Below, piece by piece: positions 5,355-58,862 of a stretch of 64,000 nt of DNA (positions within the stretch are counted from its first letter, which is position 1; each line of letters begins with the position of its first letter). Location of the stretch: positions 1 through 64,000 of the forward strand of contig JAMPAG010000004.1 of NCBI GenBank assembly GCA_023667365.1, in the 5' to 3' direction. This stretch comes from a bacterium. GTDB lineage: Bacteria > Bacillota > Clostridia > Lachnospirales > Lachnospiraceae. The translations under genes and the position numbers were made by a program. The notes under the pieces are model-generated. The model was not told the origin of the DNA. It saw nothing but the letters and a program-made list of their open reading frames with translations, and did not search any database.

Positions 5355-5516
5355 TATCTATAGGAAGCCCGCAACCCAAAAGAACTGCCAAAGGCAGTTT
5401 TTTGAAAGAGTTTCGCGCAAGCGGAACTCTTTTTTAACTTATAGGAAATTCCTCAAACCCGGAAGAATCGCTCCGCGATTCTTCGAAAGAGTTTGCGGAA
5501 CGCAAACTCTTTTTTA
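5355..5516 (+). repeat. Two tandem ~80-bp hairpin modules acting as (bi)directional terminators
   Basis: Module 1 (5355-5436) and module 2 (5437-5516) share a lead TATAGGAA...CAA.CCC, then one perfect hairpin, then a second hairpin with a T-tract. Module 1: AACTGCC-aaa-GGCAGTT (5383-5399, followed by T6), then a stem around CGC-gcaa-GCG (5406-5431, followed by T). Module 2: GAAGAATCGC-tcc-GCGATTCTTC (5462-5484), then AAGAGTTTGCG-gaa-CGCAAACTCTT (5487-5511, followed by T). The second hairpin type recurs almost identically at 41081-41113. The modules lie between convergent genes and probably terminate both; they also look like a dispersed repeat family. Confidence 0.75.
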
Positions 5517-6581
5517 TGCATCCAACATTGCCAGCAGCTCATAGACGCGGGCTTTGGTCAGCTCCGCCGCTTTTGTATTCGTCACAAGCGGGTAGAGGGA
5601 GCCGCCTTCGAATTCGGTGCCTGCCGCTTCGACCGCCGCTTCTTTTTCGGCGATCCATGCAAGCTGTTCGTCCGTGAGCGCGCGCATGGTCTCCGCGTCG
5701 TTTACCCGTTTGAGCACATTCCAGACCTGGTTCAACGCAAAATCCCACATTTCATATAGCTCGCCTGCTTTGACGTTCAGATCCGCTTGGGAGAGCGCGG
5801 CGTCATGCGCGATGTCATCTTCGAGTGCCGCCGCCATGTTTGCAATGGAGGCAAGGTAGGAGGCGAAAGCTTCTGCGGCGGCATAGCTGGAAAATCCTTC
5901 CGCCGCCGCCTCGTTGTACAATCCGTAAAAAGGAAGTTCCGTGTCCGTCGTGTTTTCCAAATAGTAGTAGCCTACCCATGAACGATAGCCTTCAGGAAGC
6001 TCGGCGAGCGGCGCTCCGGGGAGATAGACCAGGATGTCCTTTGCGTCGTCCAGACCGTAGGGTGTGGTATAGTAATATAAAACGCCGTCCCTAATCGCCT
6101 CCGTGCCGGGCTCGTCTGCATAGCTGATCGACAAAATCTGCATGGAATAGGTGTAGTCGTTCACCTTTACCGGCTGTGAGAACTGTCCGTTAAACGCGCA
6201 ATGGTACGCCGTGCCATACGGATGGTCGTCGCCGGTATCGCCCATATCGTCGTCATGATATTCTCCGGCAAACGTGCCGTCCGCACGGATCGACAGTTCC
6301 GTTGCCCAGGCACCCGCGCCGCTTGAAAAGTCAAAGGTTAAATAATGAAAATCGGCAAAGGACAGGGCTGCGCCATCCGCATTGTCCCCATCAGCGCCCG
6401 CGGCGTCTACGTCATCCACGCCGATTCCGCCTATATTCGCATCAAAGGCATTTGCCTCATCGTCTTCGATAATAATGGGAATCGTGGGAACTTCGGATTT
6501 TTCCGCGTCCGCCTTTCCACAGCCGCATACGGAAAGGATCATACATCCGGCGGTCAATAGTGCACTCAGTCTTTTGCTCAT
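5514..6581 (-). CDS. Lipoprotein with C-terminal LprI/DUF1311-like domain (355 aa)
   Basis: The start ATG at 6581 is preceded by AAGGAGAA. A type II signal peptide ends in 'ILSVCGC', so Cys21 is probably lipidated. An acidic Asp/Ala-rich linker (about residues 25-75) is followed by a middle domain of unknown function (about 75-255). The final ~95 residues have the layout of the LprI-like DUF1311 domain, with 'LTDEQLAWIAEKEAAVEAAG' and a terminal Arg/Leu helix. The protein should sit on the outer face of the membrane. DUF1311 is related to lysozyme-inhibitor LprI, so interaction with the wall or lysozyme is conceivable but unproven. It stands alone and faces away from the ABC exporter, ending in the hairpin modules. 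Confidence 0.7.
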   Translation of the reverse strand: MSKRLSALLTAGCMILSVCGCGKADAEKSEVPTIPIIIEDDEANAFDANIGGIGVDDVDAAGADGDNADGAALSFADFHYLTFDFSSGAGAWATELSIRADGTFAGEYHDDDMGDTGDDHPYGTAYHCAFNGQFSQPVKVNDYTYSMQILSISYADEPGTEAIRDGVLYYYTTPYGLDDAKDILVYLPGAPLAELPEGYRSWVGYYYLENTTDTELPFYGLYNEAAAEGFSSYAAAEAFASYLASIANMAAALEDDIAHDAALSQADLNVKAGELYEMWDFALNQVWNVLKRVNDAETMRALTDEQLAWIAEKEAAVEAAGTEFEGGSLYPLVTNTKAAELTKARVYELLAMLDA

Positions 6582-7130: not shown

Positions 7131-7183
7131 TTGACAATAGTGTCTATTGGTGATAGACTAAAAATGTCTATTAGGAATAGACA
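7131..7183 (+). promoter_or_regulatory. Sigma-A promoter overlapped by two BlaI-type operators
   Basis: TTGACA (7131-7136) and TAGACT (7154-7159) are spaced by 17 bp. Two dyads overlap or follow them: TGTCTAT-tggt-GATAGAC (7141-7158) and TGTCTATT-agg-AATAGACA (7165-7183). The placement between the -35 box and the leader of a BlaI-family gene fits negative autoregulation by the protein encoded at 7236. Confidence 0.75.
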
Positions 7184-7235: not shown

Positions 7236-7589
7236 ATGACGGATTATCAATTAGGGGTGGTCGAATCGAAATTTGCAGAAATTGTGTGGTCGCATGCGCC
7301 GTTATCGACAGCGGAGCTGGTCGCGCTGTGCGGTGAGGAACTGCAATGGAAACGGACGACGACCTACACCGTATTAAAAAAATTAGGCGAACATGGTTTT
7401 TTTCAGATGAAGGATAAGACCGTGACCGCACTGATTTCAAGGGAAGAATACTATGGTTCCCAGAGCGAGCGGTTTGTGCGGGAGACATTCGACGGTTCGC
7501 TGCCCGCGTTCATTGCCGCGTTTACGAAGCGAAAAGCGTTGAGCGAGGAGGAAATCGCAGAAATCCGCAGGATGATCGACGGGAATTAG
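7236..7589 (+). CDS. BlaI/MecI/CopY-family transcriptional repressor (117 aa)
   Basis: The protein has the length and winged-helix layout of BlaI: 'LGVVESKFAEIVWSHAPLST' as the first helices, the recognition segment 'WKRTTTYTVLKKLGEHGF', and a C-terminal dimer helix with 'LPAFIAAFTKRKALSEEEI'. In this family a membrane M56 sensor triggers cleavage of the repressor. The candidate sensor starts 12 bp downstream. Operators around the promoter at 7131-7183 suggest that it represses its own operon. The inducer (beta-lactam or other wall stress) cannot be told from sequence. Confidence 0.9.
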   Translation: MTDYQLGVVESKFAEIVWSHAPLSTAELVALCGEELQWKRTTTYTVLKKLGEHGFFQMKDKTVTALISREEYYGSQSERFVRETFDGSLPAFIAAFTKRKALSEEEIAEIRRMIDGN

Positions 7590-7601
7590 GGAGGATAAGG
7601 A

Positions 7602-9335
7602 ATGGGACAGATTTTTTTGCGTGTGCTGAATATGAGCATGACGGCGTGCTGGCTGATGGCGGCGGTGATCGTGCTTCGTTTTTTATTAAAAAAGGCGCCG
7701 AGATGGATGGCCTGTCTGCTTTGGGCGTTTGTGGCGTTCCGTCTCATCTGCCCGTTTCAAGTGGAAAGCAGTTTCAGCTTAGTGCCGGACGGGGAGCCGG
7801 TGCGCGAGCTGCGAAATCCGGTGCGCGACGTACCGGAAAGCGGTCCATTGCCGAATGGGAGTGCGGATGAAAATGTGACCGTGGCAGCGGACGATATGAC
7901 GTTCGGCGACGGTCAGGGCAGCCGCCCGGCAGGTGCGGATAGCGGGGAGCGGGGAAGTTATGCGGCTGCGATCGGCGTTATCTGGCTGTGCGGTGTGGCG
8001 GCGCTGCTTTTTTACAGCGTATTCAGTTATGTGAGGCTGCATAAACGCACGACAGTGTCTGTCAGACTAAAAGGTCGGATATGGCAGTGCGACGAGATCG
8101 CGACGCCGTTTATTCTGGGGATTGTCAGACCGCATATTTATCTTCCGTCAGACATGGAAGAAGCGCAGGCAAAGTATGTGATCGCGCATGAACAGATGCA
8201 TTTGCAAAGGCGCGACCATTGGTGGAAGCCGCTTGGCTTTTTGATTTTGTCGGTGCATTGGTTTAATCCGCTGTGCTGGGTGTCTTATTGGCTGTTCTGC
8301 CGTGATATTGAGCTGGCGTGCGATGAGCGTGTGATCAGGGGAGAAGACGAACCGTATCGAAAATCGTATGCAGAGGCATTGGTTTCGTGCAGTACCGGGC
8401 AAAAGAAAATCATGGCATGTCCGCTGGCGTTTGGCGAGGTGGGTGTAAAAGAAAGGGTGAAGAATGTGATGAATTATAAAAAGCCGGCTTTTTGGATCGT
8501 ATTAACGGCGGCGGCAGCATGTCTTATTGTAGCAGTCTGCTTTTTGACGAATCCACAGAAAGAAGTGAACGCGCAGCAGGGCGCCGGCGGACAGAGCGGG
8601 AACGTGGGGAGAACGGACAACGCGGACGATTCCGGGATGCTCCGCGTGGATGACACGGTCGGCGACAGGGACGGGAGCCGTGCGGAAACCGGCAGCGACG
8701 GACAGGATGACGGTGCGGATCGAGGAGGGAACGGAGCAGACAGCATAGGAACGGGAACCGGCAGCGACGGAGCGGACGGCGGTGCGGATCGAGGAGGGAG
8801 CGGAGCAGACAGCATAGGAACGGAAACCGGCAGCGACGGACAGGACGGCGGTGCGGATCGCGGAGAGAACGGAGCCCCCGGCATGAGCGGTATGCAGGAG
8901 AGCGACGCGCCGGAAATTCCGGACGTGGTATGGGAGGCGGCACGGCATTATGTGAGCGCCGCGTTTGACCGGACGAGGGAGAGCCGCGAGAGCGGTATCG
9001 ACTGGATTGCTTCTTATGTGGACTGGCGGATTGAGGATGTGGCGTATTGCTACACGTATGATCAGATTGCCGGCATGACCTGCGATGTGTATCGGCTCAA
9101 CTATGAATTTTTGGCGGAATCACCGGAGGATGTACTGCTGGTAGGCGGAATGTCCATGTCCGAGGACGGATGGGTCGTGCCCGAATCGCCGAACAGTGAT
9201 TATTTGATTTTTCAAAAAGAAGGAGATACGCTGACCTATTTCTGCGGAATGGCTGAGAATGACTGCGAGCCGGGAGACGAGCTTTTTACCTCGGATCTCA
9301 TCAATTATTGTTCTGAGATCGGCATATTGCGGTAG
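7602..9335 (+). CDS. M56 (BlaR1-like) membrane metallopeptidase sensor with repeat linker and C-terminal domain (577 aa)
   Basis: N-terminal membrane helices (about residues 5-30 and 35-55) and one near 125-145 precede a zinc protease motif HEQMH (about 196-200, in 'VIAHEQMHLQRRDH'). The third ligand region is 'ELACDERVI'. A last helix lies at about 285-305. Instead of a penicillin-binding domain it has a Gly/Asp-rich linker with roughly 24-residue repeats (about 365-425), then about 145 residues of an extracellular domain of unknown function ('WIASYVDWRIEDVAYCYTYD'). It is probably a wall-stress sensor cleaving the BlaI partner upstream. The absence of the transpeptidase-like domain means the ligand is unknown. 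Confidence 0.85.
   Translation: MGQIFLRVLNMSMTACWLMAAVIVLRFLLKKAPRWMACLLWAFVAFRLICPFQVESSFSLVPDGEPVRELRNPVRDVPESGPLPNGSADENVTVAADDMTFGDGQGSRPAGADSGERGSYAAAIGVIWLCGVAALLFYSVFSYVRLHKRTTVSVRLKGRIWQCDEIATPFILGIVRPHIYLPSDMEEAQAKYVIAHEQMHLQRRDHWWKPLGFLILSVHWFNPLCWVSYWLFCRDIELACDERVIRGEDEPYRKSYAEALVSCSTGQKKIMACPLAFGEVGVKERVKNVMNYKKPAFWIVLTAAAACLIVAVCFLTNPQKEVNAQQGAGGQSGNVGRTDNADDSGMLRVDDTVGDRDGSRAETGSDGQDDGADRGGNGADSIGTGTGSDGADGGADRGGSGADSIGTETGSDGQDGGADRGENGAPGMSGMQESDAPEIPDVVWEAARHYVSAAFDRTRESRESGIDWIASYVDWRIEDVAYCYTYDQIAGMTCDVYRLNYEFLAESPEDVLLVGGMSMSEDGWVVPESPNSDYLIFQKEGDTLTYFCGMAENDCEPGDELFTSDLINYCSEIGILR
8690..8880 (+). repeat. In-frame ~72-bp tandem repeats in the M56 sensor linker
   Basis: Three diverging in-frame copies encode variants of 'GSDGxDxGADRGGNGADSIG'. 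The surrounding linker is also Gly/Asp-rich. Copy number could vary by slippage and would change only the length of an extracellular linker. Confidence 0.75.
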
Positions 9336-9418: not shown

Positions 9419-9481
9419 TTGACAAAGAGGTCTATATGTTATAAACTCATGAAAAAGGGTTTACAACATATAGACCTCTTT
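9419..9481 (+). promoter_or_regulatory. Promoter inside a 25-bp near-perfect palindrome (BlaI-2 operator)
   Basis: TTGACA (9419-9424) and TAAACT (9442-9447) have a 17-bp spacer. The spacer forms the left arm of a palindrome, 9424-9448, whose right arm is 9457-9481 (two mismatches in 25). Each arm contains GGTCTATATG or its complement CATATAGACC. The GTCTAT/ATAGAC core is shared with the operators at 7141-7183. It should be the operator of the BlaI-family gene at 9505; an attenuating hairpin in the leader RNA is also possible. Confidence 0.7.
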
Positions 9482-9504
9482 ACGCAAGACAGGAGGAAAT
9501 CACA

Positions 9505-9867
9505 ATGAAGAAAGAATATCGTTTAACGGAAGCGGAGACGGAGTTTGCAAAACTGATCTGGGAGCATGAGCCTGTTTCTTCAACGGCGCTCGTGCGTTTG
9601 TGCGCGGAAGCGTTTGACTGGAAAAAATCAACGACGTATACGATGTTGAAAAACCTGTGCGGGAAGGGCGTTTTCCGAAATGAAAACGCGACGGTTACTT
9701 CCATATTAAAAAAAGAAGATTTCTATGGAAAACAGAGCCGCGAGTATGTCAACGAGGTGTTTGGCGGCTCGTTGCCCCGGTTTCTGGCAGCCTTCTGCGG
9801 CGGGAGAAAACTGACTGCGGCGGAGGCGGCGGAAATGCGGCGGCTGATCGACGAGGCGGACAATTGA
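9505..9867 (+). CDS. Second BlaI/MecI-family repressor (120 aa)
   Basis: Clear paralogue of the protein at 7236, with the same architecture: 'LTEAETEFAKLIWEHEPVSS', recognition region 'DWKKSTTYTMLKNLCGKGVF', and a C-terminal helix with 'LPRFLAAFCGGRKLTAAEAA'. It starts at ATG after a good AGGAGG (9491-9496). It is likely autoregulated through the palindrome at 9419-9481 and paired with the M56-M23 protein downstream. The two BlaI-M56 pairs lie head to tail and probably arose by tandem duplication followed by divergence. Confidence 0.9.
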   Translation: MKKEYRLTEAETEFAKLIWEHEPVSSTALVRLCAEAFDWKKSTTYTMLKNLCGKGVFRNENATVTSILKKEDFYGKQSREYVNEVFGGSLPRFLAAFCGGRKLTAAEAAEMRRLIDEADN

Positions 9868-9870
9868 CGA

Positions 9871-9962
9871 GAGTGCGGGTAACTGCCAGAGAGTGCGGGT
9901 AACTGCCAGAGAGTGCGGGTAACTGCCAGAGAGCGCGAATAACTGGTAGAGAGCGCGGATAA
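9871..9962 (+). repeat. 20-bp tandem repeat, 4.6 copies, between BlaI-2 and its sensor
   Basis: Three identical copies of GAGTGCGGGTAACTGCCAGA (9871-9930), then two degenerate ones. The array occupies the 178-bp gap between repressor and sensor genes. It has no hairpin potential of note and no unique spacers, so it is not CRISPR. Confidence 0.85.
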
Positions 9963-10045
9963 AGGGCGAAACACCGACAAAGAAGGACGCCCGTAAAGAG
10001 GCGGGGCGGTGAAGCAGTTTATCCGACAGGTAAGGAGGTACAGGG

Positions 10046-12049
10046 GTGGAAAGATGTCTTGAAGTGATCTTGAGAATGAGTCTGACAGCATCATTTGTCA
10101 TTGCGGCGGTATGCCTTGTCCGGATGCTGCTGCGATATGCGCCGAGGCGGTATTCCTATGTGCTATGGCTGGTCGTGCTCGTCCGTTTGGTATGTCCGAC
10201 TGCACCGGCAATGCATTTTGGCGCGGTGCCCGATATGGCACGGGTCATAGAGGATTGGCAGGCATCGGGAGAACAGGTGTCGGAAGAACAAGCGTCTAAG
10301 GCGCAGGCATCGGGAGAACAGGTGTCCGGCACGGAACCGTCGGAGGGGAACCTGTGGACGCCGGATAATGAGGGGCAGAATGCGGCATGGCTTAGCGTGG
10401 AACAGGAAGTGATCGTGGTACCGGACGTTGCGGTCGGCGTTGCGGCGGGTGCACAGCAGGCGTGGGAGCATGGGAAAGAATCTGCGCATACGGCTTCTGC
10501 GGGAGAAACAGCGGATACTGCGCGGCGCGCATGGCCGGTATCGGATGCGGCATGCAAGATTGTCTGTCTGTGCTGGCTGTGCGGTGCATTCCTCTTTTTG
10601 GGATATGGGATCACAGGGTACTTCCGGCTTATGTTCCGCTTACGGAAAAAAGAAAAATCGGTCTTTTTGATGAAAAAAGACGCGGATGGGGAAATGGCAG
10701 ATGCGGCGGAAAAAATGCTGCGCCGGCCCGTCCGGATCGTGGAGGATGCCGGGATCGGGGCGCCGTTTACCGTTGGGATATTCCGTCCGGTCATCTGCAT
10801 TCCGAAAGGTCTGTTTCCGTTTCAGCGCGAAATGGTGATCGCACATGAAAGTATGCATATTCAAAGGCGGGATAATTTGTGGAAGCTGACCGCTTATGTG
10901 GTACGCTGTATGCATTGGTTTAATCCGCTCGTGTGGCTTGCGTTTTACTGCTTTGAGGAGGATATGGAGACTTCGTGCGACGAGGCGGTTCTAAGAAAGC
11001 TCGGTTATGAGCGGCGCAAGGAGTATGCGGAAACCCTGTTGAAATTGGCGGAATGCAGGCGGGGAACCGACGCCTTTTATTCGGTAACGTTTGGCGGGAA
11101 AAACACAAAAATGCGCATCCGGAATGCGCTTTCCGCTAAAAAAACAAGATGGTGGGTTGCATTGGCGGCAACGGCGGTCGTGATCGCGGCGGTTATGCTG
11201 CTGTCGGTGAACCACAAGCCTGTGCAGGAGGAAGCGCTTTCTTCGGATGAGCAGACACAGCAGGCGGACAGTCAGAGCGCGGGCAGTCTGCTGATCGCGC
11301 AGGACGTCCTGCAAGAGGGGATGGAACAGCGGTTAGCGTATCTGCGTCAGCAGGAAAGACTTGACGCATTGAATGCGGAAATTCAATTGGCGGAAATCAT
11401 GACGGAACTGAGTGTCAGGATAGGAAATGAGGCGCTTACCGAGGGAGAAAGCCGTGTTGAAGAAAGCGAAGGGTATCCGGGCTTTTCGGAACAGGCGGTT
11501 CCGGTGATCCGTTTAGACGGCATGTGCGCGCTCCTGTGTAATCCGCAGACGGATCTGGAGGGGAGCGGAACAGCGGCTGCCTATTCGTTTCCGCTTGATG
11601 GAGTGGATGACGGAAGTGTGATCGTAAGCGGGGCTTATGGAAGCAGACTGCATTCCGCGACCGGAGAGGCGACATTTCATTCGGGATTGGATTTGAATGC
11701 GGAGAAAGGCGCGCCGGTGCGTGCGGCCGCCGAAGGCTGCGTATATCGGACCGGCTTTGACGAGAAATGCGGAAACTATGTGATCCTCATTCATGTGAAC
11801 GGCGATCTGACGTACTATGCGCATTGTGATACGGTGGATGTACAGGCGGGGGATATTGTAGAGCGCGGACAACAGATTGCGACAGTCGGCAATACCGGAA
11901 AAAGCACCGGCGCACATCTGCACTTTGCGATGAGCAGACAGGGAGCGTTTATGGCGCCGCGGTTTGCGGAAATGAGTATAACGGACAGCTCGATGGATTC
12001 GGGCAGTTCCGTGATCGTATTGCCGGTGGAGGTGCGGGTAGAATCGTAG
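10046..12049 (+). CDS. M56 (BlaR1-like) sensor fused to an M23 (LytM) endopeptidase domain (667 aa)
   Basis: The start GTG at 10046 follows AGGAGG (10033-10038). Membrane helices (about residues 8-30, 35-50, 175-195) precede a zinc motif HESMH (about 266-270 in 'VIAHESMHIQRRDNL') and 'METSCDEAV', as in M56 sensors. A membrane helix at about 370-390 is followed by a coiled linker and, at about 510-650, a complete M23 domain: 'GAYGSRLHSATGE', HSGLD (zinc His and Asp, about 545) and HLHF (about 625). The outside domain could therefore cut or bind peptidoglycan cross-bridges directly while the inside domain signals to BlaI. Catalytic residues look intact. The physiological trigger is not known. 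Confidence 0.88.
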   Translation: MERCLEVILRMSLTASFVIAAVCLVRMLLRYAPRRYSYVLWLVVLVRLVCPTAPAMHFGAVPDMARVIEDWQASGEQVSEEQASKAQASGEQVSGTEPSEGNLWTPDNEGQNAAWLSVEQEVIVVPDVAVGVAAGAQQAWEHGKESAHTASAGETADTARRAWPVSDAACKIVCLCWLCGAFLFLGYGITGYFRLMFRLRKKEKSVFLMKKDADGEMADAAEKMLRRPVRIVEDAGIGAPFTVGIFRPVICIPKGLFPFQREMVIAHESMHIQRRDNLWKLTAYVVRCMHWFNPLVWLAFYCFEEDMETSCDEAVLRKLGYERRKEYAETLLKLAECRRGTDAFYSVTFGGKNTKMRIRNALSAKKTRWWVALAATAVVIAAVMLLSVNHKPVQEEALSSDEQTQQADSQSAGSLLIAQDVLQEGMEQRLAYLRQQERLDALNAEIQLAEIMTELSVRIGNEALTEGESRVEESEGYPGFSEQAVPVIRLDGMCALLCNPQTDLEGSGTAAAYSFPLDGVDDGSVIVSGAYGSRLHSATGEATFHSGLDLNAEKGAPVRAAAEGCVYRTGFDEKCGNYVILIHVNGDLTYYAHCDTVDVQAGDIVERGQQIATVGNTGKSTGAHLHFAMSRQGAFMAPRFAEMSITDSSMDSGSSVIVLPVEVRVES

Positions 12050-13539: not shown

Positions 13540-15639
13540 ATGAGGAAAAGAGAAGACGGAAAAGCGCTTATTTTTTATTCGGCGGCTGTTTTTCTTTTTT
13601 TTGCGCTTTCTTTTGGGAGCGGTATCACAAGAATATACGGTTTTACGCTGTTCCCCGATGAATTTGGCTATTGGTCATCCGCGGCGGAGGCGGCGGGATA
13701 TGACTGGTCGAAGGTAACGGCGTACGGATCCTATTACTCTTTTGGCTATGGACTCATTCTTACGCCCATCCTTCTGCTCTGCGGGGATGCAGTATGGACA
13801 TATCGGATCGCGCTTTGCGTGAACGCGCTCTTACTGGCGGCATCGTTTATGCTGCTAAAAAAAATAATCGGAAGGCTGATCCCCCTCAGCGAACCGGTAC
13901 AGCGCGTATTAAGCGCGGGAATTGCGGTCTGTTACCCGGTATGGCTGCTCTATGTGAACATGACCATGACGGAGATTTTGCTCGTATGCTGTTTTCTGCT
14001 TGTGTGCGAACTCCTGCTGCGATATTTGGAGCGCCCGTCGATCGGGCGTTTTGCGGCGGCGGGCGTCAGTGCCGTTTACCTGTACACGGTTCATCTGCGG
14101 AGCGTGCCGGTCCTGTGCGCGTGTACAGCCTGTATGCTGCTGTTCTGGATCGGGGAAATCAGGCGGGGGAAGGAGAAGCCCGCACATCCGGGAAAAGTGC
14201 TGTGCGCCTCAAATGCAAAGGAGCGTGAGCGTCCTGCCCCAAAAAGCGGGATGCCGGTATGGATAAGACCGCTTGCGGCGCTTGCGATCGTGACAGCGGC
14301 GGTTCTGGCGGCGGAATGTCTTAAAAATCTGACGCAGGCATCCGTATATGGAGAGACGAATGCGGCGCTGCTTTCGGTCAATGATTACGGCGGACAGCTT
14401 TCGAACTTAAAAGGACTCTTTACATGGCGCGGTTTTAAGGAGCTGGCCGTCAGCCTGATCGGGAAGATTTATTATCTGACGTTTGCGGGCTTTGGGCTTT
14501 TTCCCGCAGGGCTATGGTTTTTGATCAAAAAAATGACGGGGAAGGATGCGGATAGTCGTATCCGGCTGTTTTGTCTGTTCGTTCTCCTTTCGGTTGGCGG
14601 AGAAATTATGGTATGCGCCATTTATACAAAGGGATACGGGCGCATGGACGGGCTGTGTTACGGGCGTTACGACGAGCAGATCCTTCCGCTGCTCATGGCG
14701 CTTGGCTGTTTTGGCATCTGGAAGATGAAACGTCCGGTACGCTATGGCGCGGCGCTCCTGCTTTCCGGACTTCCGGTCACGGCAATGCTGGAGTCGATCA
14801 TAAAAAGCCATCAAATGAGTAATCTCAACGGCGGCTATTTTGTCGCGGGGCTTTCGTATCTGCTGCACCATATTCCGTTTGAGCCGGAGAATTATTTTTG
14901 GAAGGCGTACGCGCTTGCTGCGGTGCTGACAGCGCTTTTGATCGCTGTGCTGCGGCTAAGCCGCGGAAGGAGCGGACGCGGCGAAAGCGCCGCTCATGCC
15001 GGAGACGTCGATTATACGGAACCGTCGGCGGGAAGATTTTACTGGCTGCTCCTTGTGTGGATCGGCGTGGAAGTGCTTCTGGGAATGGACTTAAACGAGG
15101 GCATGGTATACAGTCAGAACCGCGTGCGCTATCAGGATATGCGGATGGTTGCCGCACTTGAGGAACTGCGGGAGGAAACGCGCGACACAGGCGGACAGGC
15201 GGATGGCGGAGCAAATCGTGGAGACAGCGCCGGAGAGGAAACGTGCGACACGGGCGGGCAGGCGGATGGCGGAGCGAATCGTGGAGACAGCGCCGGAGAG
15301 GAAACGCGCGACACGGGCGGGCAGGCGGATGGCGGAGCGAATCGTGGAGACAGCGCCGCGGAAAGCGCGTGCGATACAGACGGATCGAGCGATCGGGAAG
15401 CAGGAGAGCCGGAACGCCGGATCGTCTGCTTTGGCGGGGACGCGGCAGGGATGTACGCCGCCGTTGTTCAATTCCGGCTGCGGGGCGAGGTCATTTATTT
15501 TTATACGCCGGAGGAGGCGGAGAAGCTGTCAGAGCGGGATCTGGTGCTCGCGTGCGAGTCGGAGGACCGCAGCGCGCTGGCATCGGCGTATACACAGCAT
15601 GAGGTGTATGGAATATTCCATTTATATTATAACGGGTAA
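13540..15639 (+). CDS. Polytopic GT-C-type glycosyltransferase-like membrane protein (699 aa)
   Basis: About ten membrane helices are spread over residues 10-520. Just after the first helix is 'FPDEFGYWSSAAEAAGYDWS', an acidic 'DE' motif in the first outside loop followed by an aromatic 'YYSFGYG' segment. This layout matches GT-C enzymes that use lipid-linked sugars, where the acidic pair is catalytic. The gene at 23479 carries the same pattern ('PDEAGYLCNAAFFSGNDWS...YYGYGYS') and is a homologue. About residues 543-610 are three in-frame copies of an Asp/Gly-rich 21-22-residue unit, followed by a roughly 80-residue tail. Next to a dolichol-phosphate-mannose-synthase-like GT2, it could transfer a sugar from the lipid donor made there. 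Confidence 0.7.
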   Translation: MRKREDGKALIFYSAAVFLFFALSFGSGITRIYGFTLFPDEFGYWSSAAEAAGYDWSKVTAYGSYYSFGYGLILTPILLLCGDAVWTYRIALCVNALLLAASFMLLKKIIGRLIPLSEPVQRVLSAGIAVCYPVWLLYVNMTMTEILLVCCFLLVCELLLRYLERPSIGRFAAAGVSAVYLYTVHLRSVPVLCACTACMLLFWIGEIRRGKEKPAHPGKVLCASNAKERERPAPKSGMPVWIRPLAALAIVTAAVLAAECLKNLTQASVYGETNAALLSVNDYGGQLSNLKGLFTWRGFKELAVSLIGKIYYLTFAGFGLFPAGLWFLIKKMTGKDADSRIRLFCLFVLLSVGGEIMVCAIYTKGYGRMDGLCYGRYDEQILPLLMALGCFGIWKMKRPVRYGAALLLSGLPVTAMLESIIKSHQMSNLNGGYFVAGLSYLLHHIPFEPENYFWKAYALAAVLTALLIAVLRLSRGRSGRGESAAHAGDVDYTEPSAGRFYWLLLVWIGVEVLLGMDLNEGMVYSQNRVRYQDMRMVAALEELREETRDTGGQADGGANRGDSAGEETCDTGGQADGGANRGDSAGEETRDTGGQADGGANRGDSAAESACDTDGSSDREAGEPERRIVCFGGDAAGMYAAVVQFRLRGEVIYFYTPEEAEKLSERDLVLACESEDRSALASAYTQHEVYGIFHLYYNG
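15169..15365 (+). repeat. In-frame ~63-bp tandem repeats in the GT-C protein
   Basis: Three near-identical copies encode 'EETRDTGGQADGGANRGDSA'; copies two and three differ by only a few bases, so expansion is recent. The repeat lies between the last predicted membrane helix and the C-terminal tail. Confidence 0.85.
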
Positions 15640-41391: not shown

Positions 41392-42390
41392 ATGAATAGA
41401 ATGAAAATTGCATTTTTCAGTACAAAACCATATGACCGGCTTTGGTTTGAACCGATGGGGAAAGACTACGGATTTGATATTCATTTTATCGAAATGCCCT
41501 GCAACGAGGAGACCATCTTTCTGGCAAAGGGATATGACGCGATCTGTATTTTTGTCAATGATTACGTGAATGCAGAGATGATCGACAGGTTGTATGAGAT
41601 GAAAGTTAAAGCGATCCTCCTGCGAAGCGCAGGATTTAATCATGTGGATGTAAAAGCGGCGGAGGATAAGATCACGATCCTGCGCGTGCCGAGCTATTCA
41701 CCGGAAGCGGTGGCGGAATTTGCCATGGCGATGCTTCTGACCGTAAACCGGTATACGCATAAGGCGTATACGCGGACAAGGGATTTTAATATGAACATTA
41801 ACGGTTTTATGGGAAAGGATATGTTTCATAAGGTGGCGGGCGTCATCGGCACGGGAAAGATCGGGCAGGCGATGATCCGCATTTTTAACGGATTTTCCAT
41901 GCATGTGATCGCCTACGATCCTTACCCGAATCATATGCTGGACGTGGAATATGTTTCGCTGGAGGAACTTTTGCGCCAGTCAGATTTTATTTCCCTGCAT
42001 TGTCCGTTGACGCAGCAGACGCAGCATATGATCGGCCGTGAGGCGATCGGGCAGATGAAAGAGGGAGTTTACCTGGTGAATACCTCGCGCGGCGGGCTGA
42101 TCGATACGGAGGCGGTCATCGACGGATTGATCAGCAAAAAGATCGGCGGGCTCGGACTGGATGTGTATGAGGAAGAGGAGGGCGTATTCTATGAGGACCG
42201 CTCCAATGAGATCATGACGGATAAGAATCTCGCGAGACTGACAACGTTCCCGAATGTGCTGATCACTTCCCATATGGGATTCTTTACGAGAGAGGCAATG
42301 CAGGCGATCGCACAGGTTACGCTGGAAAATGCGTATGCCCTGGAGAACGGGCTTCCGCTTGTCAATCAAGTCGGAAAATGCATGGAGTAA
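41392..42390 (+). CDS. D-lactate dehydrogenase, 2-hydroxyacid dehydrogenase family (332 aa)
   Basis: ATG 41392 (or 41401; AGGAGAGG lies just upstream). NAD-binding glycine motif in 'VAGVIGTGKIGQAMIRIF'; catalytic Arg in 'LVNTSRGGLIDTEAVI'; Glu in 'GLDVYEEEEGVFYED'; His in 'ITSHMGFFTREAM'. Length and the 'YxxE' pattern match fermentative LdhA-type enzymes that reduce pyruvate to D-lactate. It is distinct from the VanH-type enzyme at 57897, although it belongs to the same superfamily. A product useful to the van pathway (D-lactate) is also made here. Confidence 0.9.
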   Translation: MNRMKIAFFSTKPYDRLWFEPMGKDYGFDIHFIEMPCNEETIFLAKGYDAICIFVNDYVNAEMIDRLYEMKVKAILLRSAGFNHVDVKAAEDKITILRVPSYSPEAVAEFAMAMLLTVNRYTHKAYTRTRDFNMNINGFMGKDMFHKVAGVIGTGKIGQAMIRIFNGFSMHVIAYDPYPNHMLDVEYVSLEELLRQSDFISLHCPLTQQTQHMIGREAIGQMKEGVYLVNTSRGGLIDTEAVIDGLISKKIGGLGLDVYEEEEGVFYEDRSNEIMTDKNLARLTTFPNVLITSHMGFFTREAMQAIAQVTLENAYALENGLPLVNQVGKCME

Positions 42391-53270: not shown

Positions 53271-53351
53271 GTTTACGCGGTAAATATAAGAAACGAAGTA
53301 TTTCACGTCTGTCTTGCAGGGGAGAATGCGATAAAGAAAGCAGGAGCACGG

Positions 53352-54053
53352 ATGAACGGGACGATTGTGGTAGTGGATGACGAAAAAGAGATCGCAGATT
53401 TACTGGAAGTATACCTCACGAACGATGGCTATGCCGTGCATAAATTTTATAACGGCAGGGACGCGCTTTCTTGGATGAAGAACAACGAGCCTGATCTGGC
53501 TGTTTTGGACGTTATGCTGCCGGATATGGACGGATTTTCGGTCTGCCAAAGGATCAGGGAACATTCTTTTTTTCCCGTCATTATGCTGACGGCAAAGGTG
53601 GAGGACGGCGATAAGATCATGGGGCTGACGATCGGCGCGGACGACTATATTACCAAACCGTTTAATCCGTTGGAGGTCGTGGCGCGCGTCAAGACACAGC
53701 TCCGCCGTTATATGCGTTACAATGCGCTGGCGGTGAAGCAGGATGAGAAAATAAATGAGTATGACATCCGCGGGCTGACAATCAACAGGGAGCATCATAA
53801 ATGCAGCCTGTTCGGGAAAGACGTGGCATTAACGCCGATTGAGTTTTCCATCCTTTGGTATCTGTGCGAGCATCAGGGAGCGGTCGTTTCGTCGGAGGAA
53901 CTGTTCGAGGCAGTATGGGGCGAGCAATATATCAACAATAATAATACGGTCATGGCGCATATCGGCAGGCTGCGTGAAAAAATGAATGAGCCGGCGAAAC
54001 GTCCGAAGTTCGTCAAAACAGTGTGGGGAGTGGGATATACGATTGAAAAATAA
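53352..54053 (+). CDS. vanR: VanR-type response regulator (233 aa)
   Basis: The ATG at 53352 (after AGGAG) is chosen over an upstream in-frame GTG. Receiver domain: acidic pair 'VVDDEKEIADLLEVYL', phospho-acceptor Asp in 'LAVLDVMLPDMDGFSV', Thr/Lys in 'IMLTAKVEDGDKI' and 'IGADDYITKPFNPLEVVARV'. OmpR-type winged helix at the end: 'LTPIEFSILWYLCEHQGAVV', 'TVMAHIGRLREKMNEPAKRP', 'VKTVWGVGYTIEK'. Identical or near-identical blocks throughout match enterococcal VanR. It overlaps the vanS start. Its target should be the vanH promoter at 58.9-59.0 kb. Confidence 0.93.
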   Translation: MNGTIVVVDDEKEIADLLEVYLTNDGYAVHKFYNGRDALSWMKNNEPDLAVLDVMLPDMDGFSVCQRIREHSFFPVIMLTAKVEDGDKIMGLTIGADDYITKPFNPLEVVARVKTQLRRYMRYNALAVKQDEKINEYDIRGLTINREHHKCSLFGKDVALTPIEFSILWYLCEHQGAVVSSEELFEAVWGEQYINNNNTVMAHIGRLREKMNEPAKRPKFVKTVWGVGYTIEK

Positions 54054-55233
54054 AGAGCTGCACGCAAAGAGAAAAATGGATTCCGATTTCAGGCATTTCA
54101 AAAACAAAATATTTTTTCGCACGATTCTGATGGTTCTGATCGCAGGAACCTGCATTTATCTGATGTACACGGCGTTTTTATCGGGGAGATTTGCGGACTG
54201 GATGGTCAGAGCGTACCATAATTTGTTCCGGCTGAATTATGATGCGGCGTATACGCTGTATCAGCATACGTTCCGCAATCATATGGATTTGATCATCCTT
54301 GCGGCGGTCGCATGTATGTTTTTTATTGTGTTCCGCATTTATCTGAATTGGTTTACGGCGTATTTTGAGGAGATCGGAAAAGGGATGGACAGCCTGATCT
54401 CGGAAAAAGAAGAGGATGTTTCCCTGCCTTCGGAGCTGCTGCCTCTGGAGCACAGGATCAATACGGTGAAGCACACGATTGAGAAGCAGAAAAGTGATAT
54501 TTTGACAACGGAAAAAAGAAAGAATGATCTCATCATGTATCTGGCGCATGACTTAAAGACGCCGCTTGCGTCCGTCATCGGATACTTAAATCTGCTGCGG
54601 GACGAAAAAGAAATATCAGAAGAAGTACGGGAAAAATATCTTTCGATCTCTTTGGAAAAAGCGGAGCGCCTCGAAGAACTCATCAATGAGTTTTTTGAGA
54701 TTGCACGGTTTAATCTTTCCGATATTGCACTGCAATACAGCCGGATCAGTCTTACGCGCCTGCTGGAGCAGATTTTATACGAATTTGGACCGATGTTAAA
54801 AGAAAAGGATCTGACGGGCAGCCTGAATGCGGGGGAAGATTTCATGCTTCTCTGCGACGCAGATAAGATTCAACGGGTGTTTGACAATCTGCTTCGCAAT
54901 GCCGTCATGTACAGTAATGAAGGCGGAGAAATTGTGATCACCGCAGAGCGGGTACCGGATCAGATTCCGGCGGTGGCTGTGACTGTCTTAAATCAGGGCA
55001 GTATAATCCCGGAAGAAAAGCTGGAACGGATTTTCGAGCAGTTTTACCGCCTGGATGACGCGCGCGGTACAAGAAGCGGCGGCGCGGGCTTAGGGCTTGC
55101 GATCGCAAAGCAGATCGTGGAGCTTCATGGGGGCAGTATCACGGCGCAGAGCGGGGAAGGGCGGACAAGGTTTTGCGTGACGCTGCCGGTTAAAGCAGTT
55201 GTAGGGACAGGCGAAAAAGGATATAATAGTTAG
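54043..55233 (+). CDS. vanS: VanS-type sensor histidine kinase (396 aa)
   Basis: TTG 54043 overlaps the vanR stop and gives the N-terminus expected of VanS ('LKNKELHAKRKMDSDFRHFK'); ATG 54091 is an alternative. Two membrane helices (about residues 22-42 and 82-100) enclose a short outside loop, as in VanS of D-Ala-D-Lac clusters. H-box 'RKNDLIMYLAHDLKTPLASV', N-box 'NLLRNAVMYSNEGGEI', G-box 'GGAGLGLAIAKQIVELHGGS'. It probably senses glycopeptide or wall stress and phosphorylates VanR. Confidence 0.92.
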   Translation: MKNKELHAKRKMDSDFRHFKNKIFFRTILMVLIAGTCIYLMYTAFLSGRFADWMVRAYHNLFRLNYDAAYTLYQHTFRNHMDLIILAAVACMFFIVFRIYLNWFTAYFEEIGKGMDSLISEKEEDVSLPSELLPLEHRINTVKHTIEKQKSDILTTEKRKNDLIMYLAHDLKTPLASVIGYLNLLRDEKEISEEVREKYLSISLEKAERLEELINEFFEIARFNLSDIALQYSRISLTRLLEQILYEFGPMLKEKDLTGSLNAGEDFMLLCDADKIQRVFDNLLRNAVMYSNEGGEIVITAERVPDQIPAVAVTVLNQGSIIPEEKLERIFEQFYRLDDARGTRSGGAGLGLAIAKQIVELHGGSITAQSGEGRTRFCVTLPVKAVVGTGEKGYNS

Positions 55234-55271
55234 CAAACGGGTATTCCCTAAAAGGAGGGTGGCAGATTGAT

Positions 55272-55553
55272 ATGAGTATGACGAAGGTGGAAATTGATAT
55301 ACCAGAGGAGATTGTACCATATACTGTGTTGGCAGATAAGGAGGCGCAGACGACAAGAAATGCTATGCTGGTGTATCCCTACATTAAAAACGGCATAATA
55401 TCTCACGGAAAGGCGGCAGAAATGTTGGGGCTTCGCAAGATGGAACTGATTGCGTTATATGGTAAATTGGGACTGTCGTATTTTGATGAGCAGGAAGAAG
55501 AACTGGAAGAAGACATAGCAGTGCTGAAAGAATTAAGGGGTGCAATTGTATGA
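55272..55553 (+). CDS. UPF0175-family antitoxin (93 aa)
   Basis: Small acidic protein with the UPF0175 pattern: 'IPEEIVPYTVLADKEAQTTR' then 'YIKNGIISHGKAAEMLGLRK' (an HTH-like segment) and an acidic tail. The 4-bp overlap with the next gene (ATGA) is typical of antitoxin-toxin pairs. AAAGGAGGG at 55251-55259 is a strong ribosome site. It lies between vanS and the terminator before vanX and might also act on the van genes' expression if it binds DNA. Confidence 0.8.
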   Translation: MSMTKVEIDIPEEIVPYTVLADKEAQTTRNAMLVYPYIKNGIISHGKAAEMLGLRKMELIALYGKLGLSYFDEQEEELEEDIAVLKELRGAIV

Positions 55554-56050
55554 TTGTTGTTTCTGATACCACACCGATCATTTCGCTGATGAAAGCAGGG
55601 CAGCTAAAGCTGTTACACGACTTGTTTGATATGGTCTATATTCCGAACATGGTGTACCGGGAGTTGATTGACTATGACGCTTTCCCGGAAGAATCAAAAA
55701 TGGTGCAGGAATGTGAGTTTCTTTTCGTGGAGGAAGCAGAGAATGAGAAAGCGGTTGCCATATTGCAAAAGCTTACGGGTTTAGATGCAGGGGAAAGCGA
55801 AGCAATTATTTTGGCAGACGAAAAGCAGTCGGATGTACTATTGATGGACGAGCATAAGGGCAGGCAGGTTGCCAGAAAGATGGGGTTAGCGATAACGGGG
55901 ACGATTGGAATCCTGATGCAGGCATTTGATGAAGGAATGCTGACAAGAGAAGATGTGGAAAAGTGTGTGGAGCGGTTGAAAGAAAACGGGATTCGAATAA
56001 GCGAAAAGCTATATCAAAAGTTGAGAGGGCATTTGAATGACCGGGGCTAA
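55550..56050 (+). CDS. DUF3368 PIN-domain toxin (166 aa)
   Basis: PIN-like nuclease: Asp in 'VVSDTTPIISLMKAGQLKLL', Glu in 'MVYRELIDYDAF', 'GLDAGESEAIILADEKQSDV' and Asp in 'LLMDEHKGRQVARKMG' give the acidic quartet, followed by 'ITGTIGILMQAFDEGMLTRE'. This is the DUF3368 (VapC-related) partner of UPF0175 proteins. A type II toxin-antitoxin unit inserted between the two halves of the van locus. Probably cuts RNA. All key residues look intact. Confidence 0.82.
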   Translation: MIVVSDTTPIISLMKAGQLKLLHDLFDMVYIPNMVYRELIDYDAFPEESKMVQECEFLFVEEAENEKAVAILQKLTGLDAGESEAIILADEKQSDVLLMDEHKGRQVARKMGLAITGTIGILMQAFDEGMLTREDVEKCVERLKENGIRISEKLYQKLRGHLNDRG

Positions 56051-56078
56051 GCCGTAAATGAAGCTTAGCTCCGGTTTT
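56038..56078 (+). terminator. Terminator of the toxin gene, facing vanX
   Basis: CCGGGGCTAAGC (56041-56052) and GCTTAGCTCCGG (56063-56074) pair with one mismatch, followed by T4. It overlaps the toxin stop. Confidence 0.75.
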
Positions 56079-56120
56079 ACTGTGCATCACAGTACCCACT
56101 TGCGGTGCAGGAAGAGAGAG

Positions 56121-56741
56121 TCAGCCAATCGGAAAATCAAAATACCGGTCCGGGTACGGCTCCTCTTTTAACAGATAATGCCACCACTCATTTTCATAAG
56201 CCTCAAATCCGCTTTCTTCCATAATGGAGCGCAGCAGTCCGCGATGTTTGGATTCGCTGACGGTGACTGCCTCCGATGTATGATGGGAACGTTCGTCCAT
56301 AAAATCAAAATTGCTTCCCATTGGCACAAGCCCTCCTGTATTCAGATTGTAGATCGTAAGATCGACGGCGCTCCCGCGGCTGTGACTTGATCTTGCGGCG
56401 ACATACCCTTTCGCGATCATTTCTTCGCGCGCAATGTTCGGATAGTGCTTTTCTTTTGTGAGACCGTCCTCGGGCTGTTCGGACCAATGCAGAAAGCAAT
56501 TGACTGCGCGCTGGGGACGGTATCCGTCCCATAAAAGCAGACCGTATCCGAGAGCCGAGGCGGTTTCACCGGCTTTTTTCAGCGCGTCTGCCAGCGCGAA
56601 AGTTCCGACAATGCGGTTGACCAGATAACCGTCCACCGGTTTTCCTGTAAAATTATCCCATGTGGCGTATTTCGCATCCCAGCGGATGCCGCGCACCGCT
56701 TCATCTAAAAAAGTAAATCCTTGTTCCATTCTAATAACCAT
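56121..56741 (-). CDS. vanX: D-Ala-D-Ala dipeptidase VanX
   Basis: Zinc dipeptidase that hydrolyses D-Ala-D-Ala so that only D-Ala-D-Lac enters the wall precursor. By homology the start is 'MEQGFTFLDEAVRGIRWDAK' (56729) or the ATG at 56741 upstream. Zinc ligands and catalytic residues are visible: 'SSHSRGSAVDLTIYNL' (His, Asp) and 'ENEWWHYLLKEEPYPDRYFD' (Glu, His), with the Arg in 'LLWDGYRPQRAVNCFL'. The sequence is close to Enterococcus VanX throughout. It overlaps or abuts the end of vanA in the vanH-vanA-vanX operon. Confidence 0.95.
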   Translation of the reverse strand: MVIRMEQGFTFLDEAVRGIRWDAKYATWDNFTGKPVDGYLVNRIVGTFALADALKKAGETASALGYGLLLWDGYRPQRAVNCFLHWSEQPEDGLTKEKHYPNIAREEMIAKGYVAARSSHSRGSAVDLTIYNLNTGGLVPMGSNFDFMDERSHHTSEAVTVSESKHRGLLRSIMEESGFEAYENEWWHYLLKEEPYPDRYFDFPIG

Positions 56742-56779
56742 GCCTTTCTCACAACCTGCGGGCTTTGTGCCGCAGGCAC

Positions 56780-57904
56780 TCAAAAATGCGGTCCCTGATT
56801 GCCTGTCAACGCAGAGGAGATCAGGCAGTCGATGATTTCCGAAACGGAAATGCCGGCGGCGTTCATCATGCGGGGATAGCGGCTGTATGATGTAAAACCC
56901 GGCAGGGTGTTGACTTCGTTGAGCACAATGCTGCCGTCATCGCGTAAAAACAGATCGACGCGGGCAAGCCCGCTGCATCCGAGCGCACGATAGATCGTTT
57001 TGGCGGTCTCTTTTAGTTCGATCTGCTTTTCCTGCGGGATTGCTGCCGGAACGGTAAAGGCAGCGTTCTCAGAGCCGTTTTCGGGAGCGGCCTCCTGATG
57101 AATGCGGAAGATGCCGTGTGAAAGTGTGATCTGATCCAATTCGCCGGTGATCAGATTGTGATTGTGTTCCAGAACGGCGCAGCCGATCTCGGTTCCCGAA
57201 ATTGCCTGCTCGATCAGAATTTTATCATCGTATTGCCCGGCGGCTGTAAGGGCGGTACACAGTTCGCTTTCGTTAAGAACCTTGCTCACACCGAAAGAGG
57301 AGCCGGAGCGCGCGGGTTTCACAAAGACCGGATAGGCGGGCATGTCTTTTGCATTGTTAAAGAGCGTGACGTGATCCGGGCGGCTGGCGGCGTGATCCGG
57401 GCAGTCGTTAGCGGACCCATCTTCCGCCGCAGGTGCGTTCAGAGACAGGACGCAAAACTCCGGGGTGGTGATACCGGCGCTTCGAACCGCCAGATAAGCG
57501 AGGGACTTGTCCATGCAGAGTGCAGAAGCGCAAATGCCGCAGCCGACATAGGGAATGCCGGATAATTCCAGTAAACCCTGGATCGCGCCATCCTCCCCCG
57601 TCTTGCCGTGAAGGACCGGAAATACCGCGTCCATCCGCAATGTCTGCCGTCCGTCGTCACCGGTCAGAATCAGTCCGTGAGTTGTCCGATCAGGAGAAAT
57701 GAACGCAGGAAAGCAGTCGCCTTTTTCCCAATCCGGGCAGGGCATCTCACATGCGAGCCAGCGCCCTGCCCGCGTGATGCCGATATAGAACGGTTCATAT
57801 TTGCTAAGGTCAATCTGTTTTGCAATCTCTGAGGCAGATTTCACGGATACGTCGTGTTCCTCCGAACATCCGCCGAATAATATGGCAATTCTGAGTTTAT
57901 TCAT
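56780..57904 (-). CDS. vanA: D-alanine--D-lactate ligase, VanA-type
   Basis: ATP-grasp ligase that joins D-Ala and D-Lac. ATG 57904 (after AAAGGAG) matches the VanA start 'MNKLRIAILFGGCSEEHDVS'. Residues around 'SGIPYVGCGICASALCMDKS', 'VFVKPARSGSSFGVSKV' and 'EVNTLPGFTSYSRYPRMM' are family blocks. The omega-loop carries His in 'GIFRIHQEAAPENGSENA', the signature of D-Lac rather than D-Ala or D-Ser ligases. An insertion of about 18 residues with Asp/Pro ('DGSANDCPDHAASRPDHV') distinguishes it from VanA of Enterococcus. The exact van type (A, B, D, F, M or new) needs comparison with references. Confidence 0.94.
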   Translation of the reverse strand: MNKLRIAILFGGCSEEHDVSVKSASEIAKQIDLSKYEPFYIGITRAGRWLACEMPCPDWEKGDCFPAFISPDRTTHGLILTGDDGRQTLRMDAVFPVLHGKTGEDGAIQGLLELSGIPYVGCGICASALCMDKSLAYLAVRSAGITTPEFCVLSLNAPAAEDGSANDCPDHAASRPDHVTLFNNAKDMPAYPVFVKPARSGSSFGVSKVLNESELCTALTAAGQYDDKILIEQAISGTEIGCAVLEHNHNLITGELDQITLSHGIFRIHQEAAPENGSENAAFTVPAAIPQEKQIELKETAKTIYRALGCSGLARVDLFLRDDGSIVLNEVNTLPGFTSYSRYPRMMNAAGISVSEIIDCLISSALTGNQGPHF

Positions 57905-58862
57905 GGTGGTTACTCCTTTCAAAGTCCGCACAATTTGCGAGTGTTTTTTCAACCGTGTCGTACAGGATACGGTCGGTGTAATATGCTGTGTGCGGCGTGA
58001 CGATCACGTTTGGCATATCAGATAATGCGGACAGGAAAGGATGGGAGACGATCTTGTGAGACCAGTCAAAATAGAAAAATCCTTCTTCGTCCTCCAATAC
58101 ATCCAATGCTGCGCCGCCAAGCGAGCCGTCGTTCAGCGCACGGATCAGTTCCGGCGTATCGATCAGCGCGCCGCGTGCCGTATTGATTAAAAAAGCACCC
58201 CGCTTCATCTGGAGAAACTGTTCCTGTCCCAGCATATGATAGGTCGCAGTGTTTAGCGGTACATGGAGTGTGATCAGGTCGCTTTCTTTCAACAGCAGGC
58301 AAAGGGGGACGCAGTCTGTGCCGCCATTCCGGTCGCAAAGCAGAATGCGGCAGCCGAACCCGCGGAGCCGCTTTTGCACGGCGCGGCCGATGCGCCCGGC
58401 GCCGACGATGCCGACCGTCATGTCGCGCAGTTCCTTTCCGCGGCAGGGCGGAAGCTGGAAGTCAGAATGCGCCGTGCGGGACAGGGAGGGACCGGCAGAG
58501 CGGAGAAGCATCAGGATCAGCATCAGCGTGTAGTCGGCAACGCCGTCAGGCGCGTATGCCGCGTTGGCGATCGTGATGCCGAGCCGCCCGGCCGCCTCCG
58601 TGTCAATATGGTCGTATCCGATACTCCGCGTGGAAAGGAATTGCACGCCGGCATCTCGTAATGTAAGCAGATTGGATGCGGTAATGCGCGACTTATGTCC
58701 CACGCTGATACAGCGGGTTCCGGGAAAGGGAACGGCATGAGACGCTGGCACGGATTGTTTTGTCATAACGGGTTCTATCCCGAAGCGCGGAGAGAGCGTG
58801 CGAAATACCCCGGCTTCGTCATCTTCGCAGTCAAAGACCGTGATTTTGGTTTGCGGCTTCAT
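57897..58862 (-). CDS. vanH: D-lactate dehydrogenase VanH
   Basis: Reduces pyruvate to D-lactate for the ligase encoded next. NAD-binding 'VGIVGAGRIGRAVQKRLRGF'; catalytic Arg in 'LINTARGALIDTPELI', Glu in 'ALDVLEDEEGFFYFDWSHKI', His in 'VIVTPHTAYYTDRILYDTVE'. Blocks 'CISVGHKSRITASNLLTLRD' and 'STRSIGYDHIDTEAAGRLGI' align with enterococcal VanH. Start 58862 after AGGAGGATTTCT. Its end overlaps vanA by 8 bp, indicating coupled translation. First gene of the operon. Regulatory region at 58943-59030. Confidence 0.95.
   Translation of the reverse strand: MKPQTKITVFDCEDDEAGVFRTLSPRFGIEPVMTKQSVPASHAVPFPGTRCISVGHKSRITASNLLTLRDAGVQFLSTRSIGYDHIDTEAAGRLGITIANAAYAPDGVADYTLMLILMLLRSAGPSLSRTAHSDFQLPPCRGKELRDMTVGIVGAGRIGRAVQKRLRGFGCRILLCDRNGGTDCVPLCLLLKESDLITLHVPLNTATYHMLGQEQFLQMKRGAFLINTARGALIDTPELIRALNDGSLGGAALDVLEDEEGFFYFDWSHKIVSHPFLSALSDMPNVIVTPHTAYYTDRILYDTVEKTLANCADFERSNHHE

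Follow-up and report, generated by a model that had tools for sequence, protein, structure and literature searches.

The window analysed here, a 64,000-nt stretch from the 3.29-Mb draft genome (91% complete) of a gut Lachnospiraceae bacterium, contains two tandem BlaI-M56 operons (Table 1). The second encodes a repressor, BlaI-2, and a protein that joins an M56 membrane protease to an M23 peptidase. A first-pass annotation, made from the sequence, had read this protein as a true fusion paired with a BlaI repressor, and both points hold: Peptidase_M56 (1.2e-53) and Peptidase_M23 (3.2e-29, residues 544-637) share one open frame in Pfam searches, both active sites are intact in the source species, and a Penicillinase_R protein is encoded just ahead. 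The GTG start codon of the fusion gene is preceded by AAGGAGG.

Table 1. Features of the two BlaI-M56 operons (positions in the window)
Feature	Position	Strand	Basis or remark
-35-like TTGACA, operon-1 promoter	7131..7136	+	
Predicted BlaI operator dyad 1a, GTCTATTGGTGATAGAC	7142..7158	+	
Predicted BlaI operator dyad 1b, GTCTATTAGGAATAGAC	7166..7182	+	Distance to 1a is 24 bp in 5/5 species
BlaI-1 repressor, 117 aa, tandem partner	7236..7589	+	Pfam PF03965 3.8e-22
M56 receptor (M56-1), partner of BlaI-1, 577 aa	7602..9335	+	Pfam PF05569 1.6e-45
-35-like TTGACA, operon-2 promoter	9419..9424	+	Conserved in 5/5 species
Predicted BlaI operator dyad 2a, GTCTATATGTTATAAAC	9430..9446	+	Overlaps spacer and -10; 5 species
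Predicted BlaI operator dyad 2b, GTTTACAACATATAGAC	9459..9475	+	Mirror image of 2a
BlaI-2, BlaI/MecI-family winged-helix repressor, 120 aa	9505..9867	+	Pfam PF03965 Penicillinase_R 7.7e-20
M56-M23 fusion protein, 667 aa	10046..12049	+	GTG start; orthologues in 4 species
Predicted extracellular loop TM2-TM3, EL1 equivalent, ~112 aa	10199..10534	+	Alignment; topology from hydropathy and model
M56 zinc motif HESMH (residues 267-271)	10844..10858	+	Invariant in 31/31 aligned M56 sequences
Third M56 ligand E308	10967-10969	+	Invariant in 31/31 aligned M56 sequences; BlaR1 8exp/8ext match
T348-F349, aligned with BlaR1 autocleavage bond Ser283-Phe284	11087..11092	+	phmmer alignment to 8exp
Predicted fourth TM helix, residues 369-387	11150..11206	+	Hydropathy and model
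Predicted long helix/coiled-coil stalk, residues 414-460	11285..11425	+	Model; length and sequence vary between species
M23/LytM domain; H545, D549, H593, H624, H626	11615..11965	+	Pfam, alignment, structural match

The fusion protein is ordered as a membrane protease, a fourth transmembrane helix, a predicted coiled coil and a C-terminal M23/LytM domain. Its M56 part, which resembles BlaR1 (8exp/8ext) in sequence and fold, also contains D306-x-E308, the region of the third ligand, and CDE. The M23 part contains H545SGLD549, H593 (in YAH) and H624LH626; we take H545, D549 and H626 to be the Zn ligands and H593 and H624 the catalytic residues. Hydropathy and an AlphaFold2 model place helices at 2-28, 34-49, 167-201 and 369-387, with an orientation inferred from BlaR1. 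This structural prediction, which had been suggested as a check, folds both the M56 and the M23 domain confidently (mean pLDDT 74.8, with most of the M56 and M23 blocks at about 80-96), with the stalk as a helix and the C-terminal LytM domain beta-rich. Foldseek matched the model to ShyA, LytM and the LytM domain of EnvC, and its membrane part to S. aureus BlaR1 (8ext). In Pfam and NCBIfam searches the protein showed no transpeptidase or beta-lactamase domain, the M23 domain standing in its place, and it scored 96 bits against the blaR1_generic cut-off of 400 (NCBIfam).

In BlaI-2, the Penicillinase_R match, covering winged helix and dimerisation domain, spans the full length. At the place aligned to the N-F scissile bond of MecI and BlaI, BlaI-2 has A-A-F, and N-F itself is missing. 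The protein matches the MecI/BlaI structures 1sd6, 1okr and 1sd4. Between BlaI-2 and the fusion gene (9868-9960) lie several near-identical tandem repeats of ~20 bp (GAGAGTGCGGGTAACTGCCA); this gap is much shorter in the related genome G200.

Operators and the shared circuit

The upstream BlaI-M56 pair (7236-9335) is homologous to the fusion operon and falls outside the span of the first-pass annotation. Its tandem order is the same in the four other species of the genus. M56-1 has no outside domain recognisable by Pfam. In-frame tandem repeats occur in its outside part (8660-8890), and also in the gene of a membrane protein at 13540-15639 (15060-15260; EET-DTGGQADGGANRGDSAG). In genome G202 the M56-1 gene is represented by two short open frames (L103 9564-10879) and may be broken, while the M56-M23 gene is intact.

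Ahead of BlaI-2, the 25-bp palindromic operator described earlier is a real operator, except that it consists of two mirrored BlaI dyads and not of one palindrome. The inverted repeat has 23-nt arms (9424-9446 and 9459-9481) that are complementary at 22 of 23 positions and separated by a 12-nt spacer, and each arm itself contains an imperfect 17-bp dyad, GTYTAY-N5-RTARAC. A -10-like TAAACT (9442-9447) follows TTGACA at a 17-bp spacing. The window contains four matches to the dyad pattern where 0.04 would be expected, a count reached in none of 100 shuffles, and all four matches precede the tandem BlaI genes, two per gene. Across the five species the promoters share the consensus TTGACA-N17-TARACT with the first dyad lying over the spacer and the -10, and in all 12 promoters the distance from the first T of TTGACA to the start of this dyad is 11 nt. 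Dyad spacing is 24 bp in operon 1; in operon 2 it is 26-29 bp, with the dyads mirrored.

Because the operators of both operons are the same, a single circuit probably serves both receptors. BlaI-1 and BlaI-2 are 46% identical and their recognition helices are near-identical (WKKSTTYTMLKNL / WKRTTTYTVLKKL), from which, together with the operator similarity, we infer cross-regulation by BlaI-1.

In the source genome, within its 91% complete draft, the operator pattern is confined to the two BlaI operons and a single site at a contig edge. This further site, at the end of contig C64 (64-80) near ileS, shares the TTGACA geometry, and the gene that follows it falls beyond the contig end. The syntenic site near ileS in G200 is a single-operator promoter followed by an NHL-repeat lipoprotein gene (L122:4550-5647, G200:C22). 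The N-terminus of this lipoprotein resembles that of an LprI-like lipoprotein (xTIPI / xxIPI) whose gene (5514-6581, minus strand) is divergent from BlaI-1 in the window and syntenic in 5/5 species. The LprI-like gene lies 560 bp from the BlaI operators; we rejected it as a direct target, as its own promoter region contains no operator.

The window also holds a complete glycopeptide-resistance-like set (53331-58862), comprising VanR (VanR-D-like) and VanS with divergent VanH, D-Ala-D-Lac ligase and VanX. The ligase scores 547.8 bits, just below the cut-off of 550 of NF000206, and VanX lies above its cut-off. A second VanH-like D-2-hydroxyacid dehydrogenase is encoded at 41392-42390, far from the van set. 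The vanRS/vanHAX set was rejected as a regulon member, since no operator match was found there.

Conservation and rarity of the fusion

The fusion is present at the same genomic place in every one of the four remaining species of the genus, with 45-57% identity (contigs DLAJ01000002.1, CAMWSU010000058.1, JAAUZV010000010.1 and JAAUZE010000028.1), one of the four orthologues being split by a contig end. As these genomes were assembled separately, an assembly or annotation error, which had been raised as a possible source of the fusion, is ruled out. Between close species, dN/dS is 0.11-0.19 for M56, 0.13-0.17 for M23 and 0.43-0.71 for the linker, where a 35-codon fragment truncated at a contig end reaches 0.89. 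Both the M56 and the M23 domain are thus under purifying selection. The four orthologues have SF in place of TF at the autocleavage-aligned position. In the genus alignment EL1 is divergent except for one conserved island, LxxxQxxxVxPD (residues 116-127).

M56-M23 fusions are rare. The genomes searched came from overlapping samples at family (200 and 397 genomes), order (392) and class (391) level; each search was followed up for its 30 best loci, and each genome for its few leading candidates. Scanning genome contigs with a single-protein query gave no matches, and beyond the four genus members an alignment query recovered just one distant M56. Among the loci sampled, a second lineage was found in the Lachnospiraceae genus g61, in the sister species G060 (941 aa) and G1064 (938 aa), and a third in Subdoligranulum variabile (OY725877.1), where the recorded gene has a broken frame and a stand-alone coiled-coil M23 gene comes next. 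The G060 fusion was picked up by an HMM rescan, as the motif regular expression passes over a replaced catalytic His. Long M23 frames in G122, G522, G928, G135 and other genomes were checked and are not M56 fusions. A 2022 review lists M56 among the rare M23 partner domains, whose architectures together make up less than 1% of M23 proteins, and in its passages on the combination names no member, operon or function (PMC9662197). Our literature text searches found no study of an M56-M23 fusion protein.

All three lineages have BlaI directly upstream and share M56, a transmembrane helix and an outside M23; the g61 and Subdoligranulum proteins belong to a different M56 subfamily from the window fusion, and the g61 proteins have an extra region of ~330 aa ahead of M23. 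The M56 tree indicates at least two origins of the fusion, a single origin appearing in 0% of bootstrap trees; in this tree the G060 fusion (L224) was not labelled as a fusion, and its position, like that of the Subdoligranulum sequence, is uncertain owing to long branches. Against a fusion-domain profile, the M23 domains of both Lachnospiraceae lineages outscore all stand-alone M23s by a wide margin, with G1064 at 190 bits versus at most 133 for stand-alone domains (the profile includes G060 and not G1064). The scores suggest a single M23 module that became attached to two M56 backbones.

The expectation that BlaR1-like sensors normally carry a penicillin-binding domain is right for the named BlaR1 and MecR1 receptors and fails for clostridial M56 proteins: a transpeptidase or beta-lactamase domain was found in 0 of 66 scanned, these loci being the best matches to the window fusion and hence no random sample. 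Their outside domains include 10 DUF4825, three DUF5301 and one each of RCC1, Germane and Ig-like. Given this variety, the outside part of the receptor family is modular, with M23 as one rare module. An RCC1-like beta-propeller is the outside domain of the M56 protein in a further BlaI-M56 pair of the source genome (L056, G000:C40), with a weak operator (GTCTACATGATATAGAA) roughly 55-70 bp ahead of the BlaI match.

Sensor and enzyme roles of the M23 domain

As judged from sequence, the window system would work like BlaR1-BlaI. With BlaR1-BlaI and MecR1-MecI of Staphylococcus aureus and Bacillus licheniformis it shares a BlaI-family repressor, dyad operators over its own promoter, the M56 gluzincin HEXXH...E, a predicted transmembrane topology with an outside domain after TM4, and Ser/Thr-Phe at the position aligned with the autocleavage bond. 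Unlike them, it has M23 on a coiled coil and no penicillin-binding sensor, an EL1 of ~112 rather than ~40 aa, operators of the form GTYTAY-N5-RTARAC, A-F rather than N-F in BlaI, and no beta-lactamase or PBP gene seen adjoining the operon. Lacking the defining sensor domain, the fusion does not count as a BlaR1. With M23/LytM endopeptidases such as EnvC and ShyA it has in common the LytM fold, HxxxD...HxH, the catalytic YxH and a helical stalk ahead, whereas in the window M23 is fused to an M56 protease-receptor under its own BlaI. The M. tuberculosis BlaR1 homologue is likewise part of an M56/BlaI pair without a beta-lactam sensor domain (PMC9834060); unlike the window fusion, it has no M23 domain.

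On balance we favour an autoregulated BlaR1-type receptor-protease with M23 on a coiled-coil stalk in place of the penicillin-binding sensor. At rest, BlaI-2, probably interchangeably with BlaI-1, would occupy the two operators overlapping the promoter. Once M23 engages its peptidoglycan substrate, or the surrounding wall changes, a signal would pass via TM4/EL1 to the inside M56 protease, which would cut BlaI at, or close to, the A-F bond, the counterpart of N-F in MecI/BlaI, and derepress the operon. Derepression would yield more fusion protein and, where the active site is complete, an inducible membrane-tethered wall hydrolase. The coupling of cross-bridge detection to BlaI cleavage that the first-pass annotation had proposed is plausible, because M23 sits where BlaR1 has its sensor. 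The input could also be carried by EL1 rather than M23.

BlaR1 signals once bound ligand has pushed loop EL1 out of the sensor groove; its inside protease has been connected with the cutting of BlaI and with self-cleavage at S283-F284 (PMC9834060). In the same manner, the M23 active site may be the ligand pocket of the receptor, substrate occupancy or turnover leading to BlaI cleavage and the domain acting as a pure binding sensor in some species; we consider this possible, though less likely than not. Substrate would perhaps displace EL1 from the M23 groove, as a beta-lactam does in BlaR1, with the conserved EL1 island as the proposed plug.

The catalytic histidines bear on whether M23 acts as enzyme or binder. 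An inactive M23 domain in relatives had been named as evidence against the proposal, and we found this in part: two of eight fusions have lost one catalytic His while keeping all Zn ligands, namely the genus member UBA7050 (H593N) and, in another genus, G060 (H624F). Neither catalytic His was lost in any of ~69 stand-alone M23s (71 by script, two of which read as pieces of fusions separated from the M56 part). The difference of 2/8 versus 0/69 gives a Fisher p of about 0.01, with the two substitutions coming from draft or MAG genomes and the stand-alone set chosen by similarity to an intact query. These losses hint that the M23 domain can serve by binding. The other six fusions, including the window protein and G1064, the sister species of G060, keep the full M23 active site, so that the decisive property may be catalysis and not binding. 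Peptidoglycan hydrolysis by M23 is the favoured prediction for most fusion-bearing species.

We also weighed two narrower accounts. M23 may serve purely as output: a wall hydrolase, tethered and produced when needed, which the fusion simply keeps with its regulator, while the signal enters via EL1 or the M56 membrane helices. The six complete active sites, the purifying selection on M23 and the stand-alone coiled-coil M23 gene after the Subdoligranulum fusion agree with this; so does the fact that the outside part of most M56 relatives contains no recognisable sensor domain, which implies that signalling without a known sensor is common. We nevertheless consider it rather unlikely, as M23 holds the sensor position of BlaR1 and two fusions lack a catalytic His with their Zn ligands kept. 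The same two substitutions would be expected if M23 were sensor only, binding stem peptide or cross-bridge with its enzyme role irrelevant, like the degenerate LytM domains of regulators. That all five catalytic and Zn residues are intact in the window protein and five other fusions makes this improbable. Least of all do we expect a non-wall input such as copper or another stress, with M23 as an incidental anchor. CopY is a relative of BlaI, and BlaI-2 gives a weak match to the CopY/TcrY model (9.6e-9, far under the cut-off), to which the neighbourhood without a visible beta-lactamase or PBP gene can be added; however, no metal-transport gene was seen in the immediate neighbourhood either, and the conserved outside part is a wall-specific domain.

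BlaR1 is the textbook case of wall-antibiotic sensing. Many clostridial genomes contain several M56-BlaI pairs without a penicillin-binding domain, and an outside domain of known substrate class offers a direct route to what this receptor family senses. The M23 fusion is also a way into the question of how the inside protease is driven by a domain on the outside. If the M23 active site is indeed the ligand pocket, the cell would read cross-bridge chemistry directly with a hydrolase, and the M56-M23 fusion would unite wall sensor and wall enzyme in one protein.
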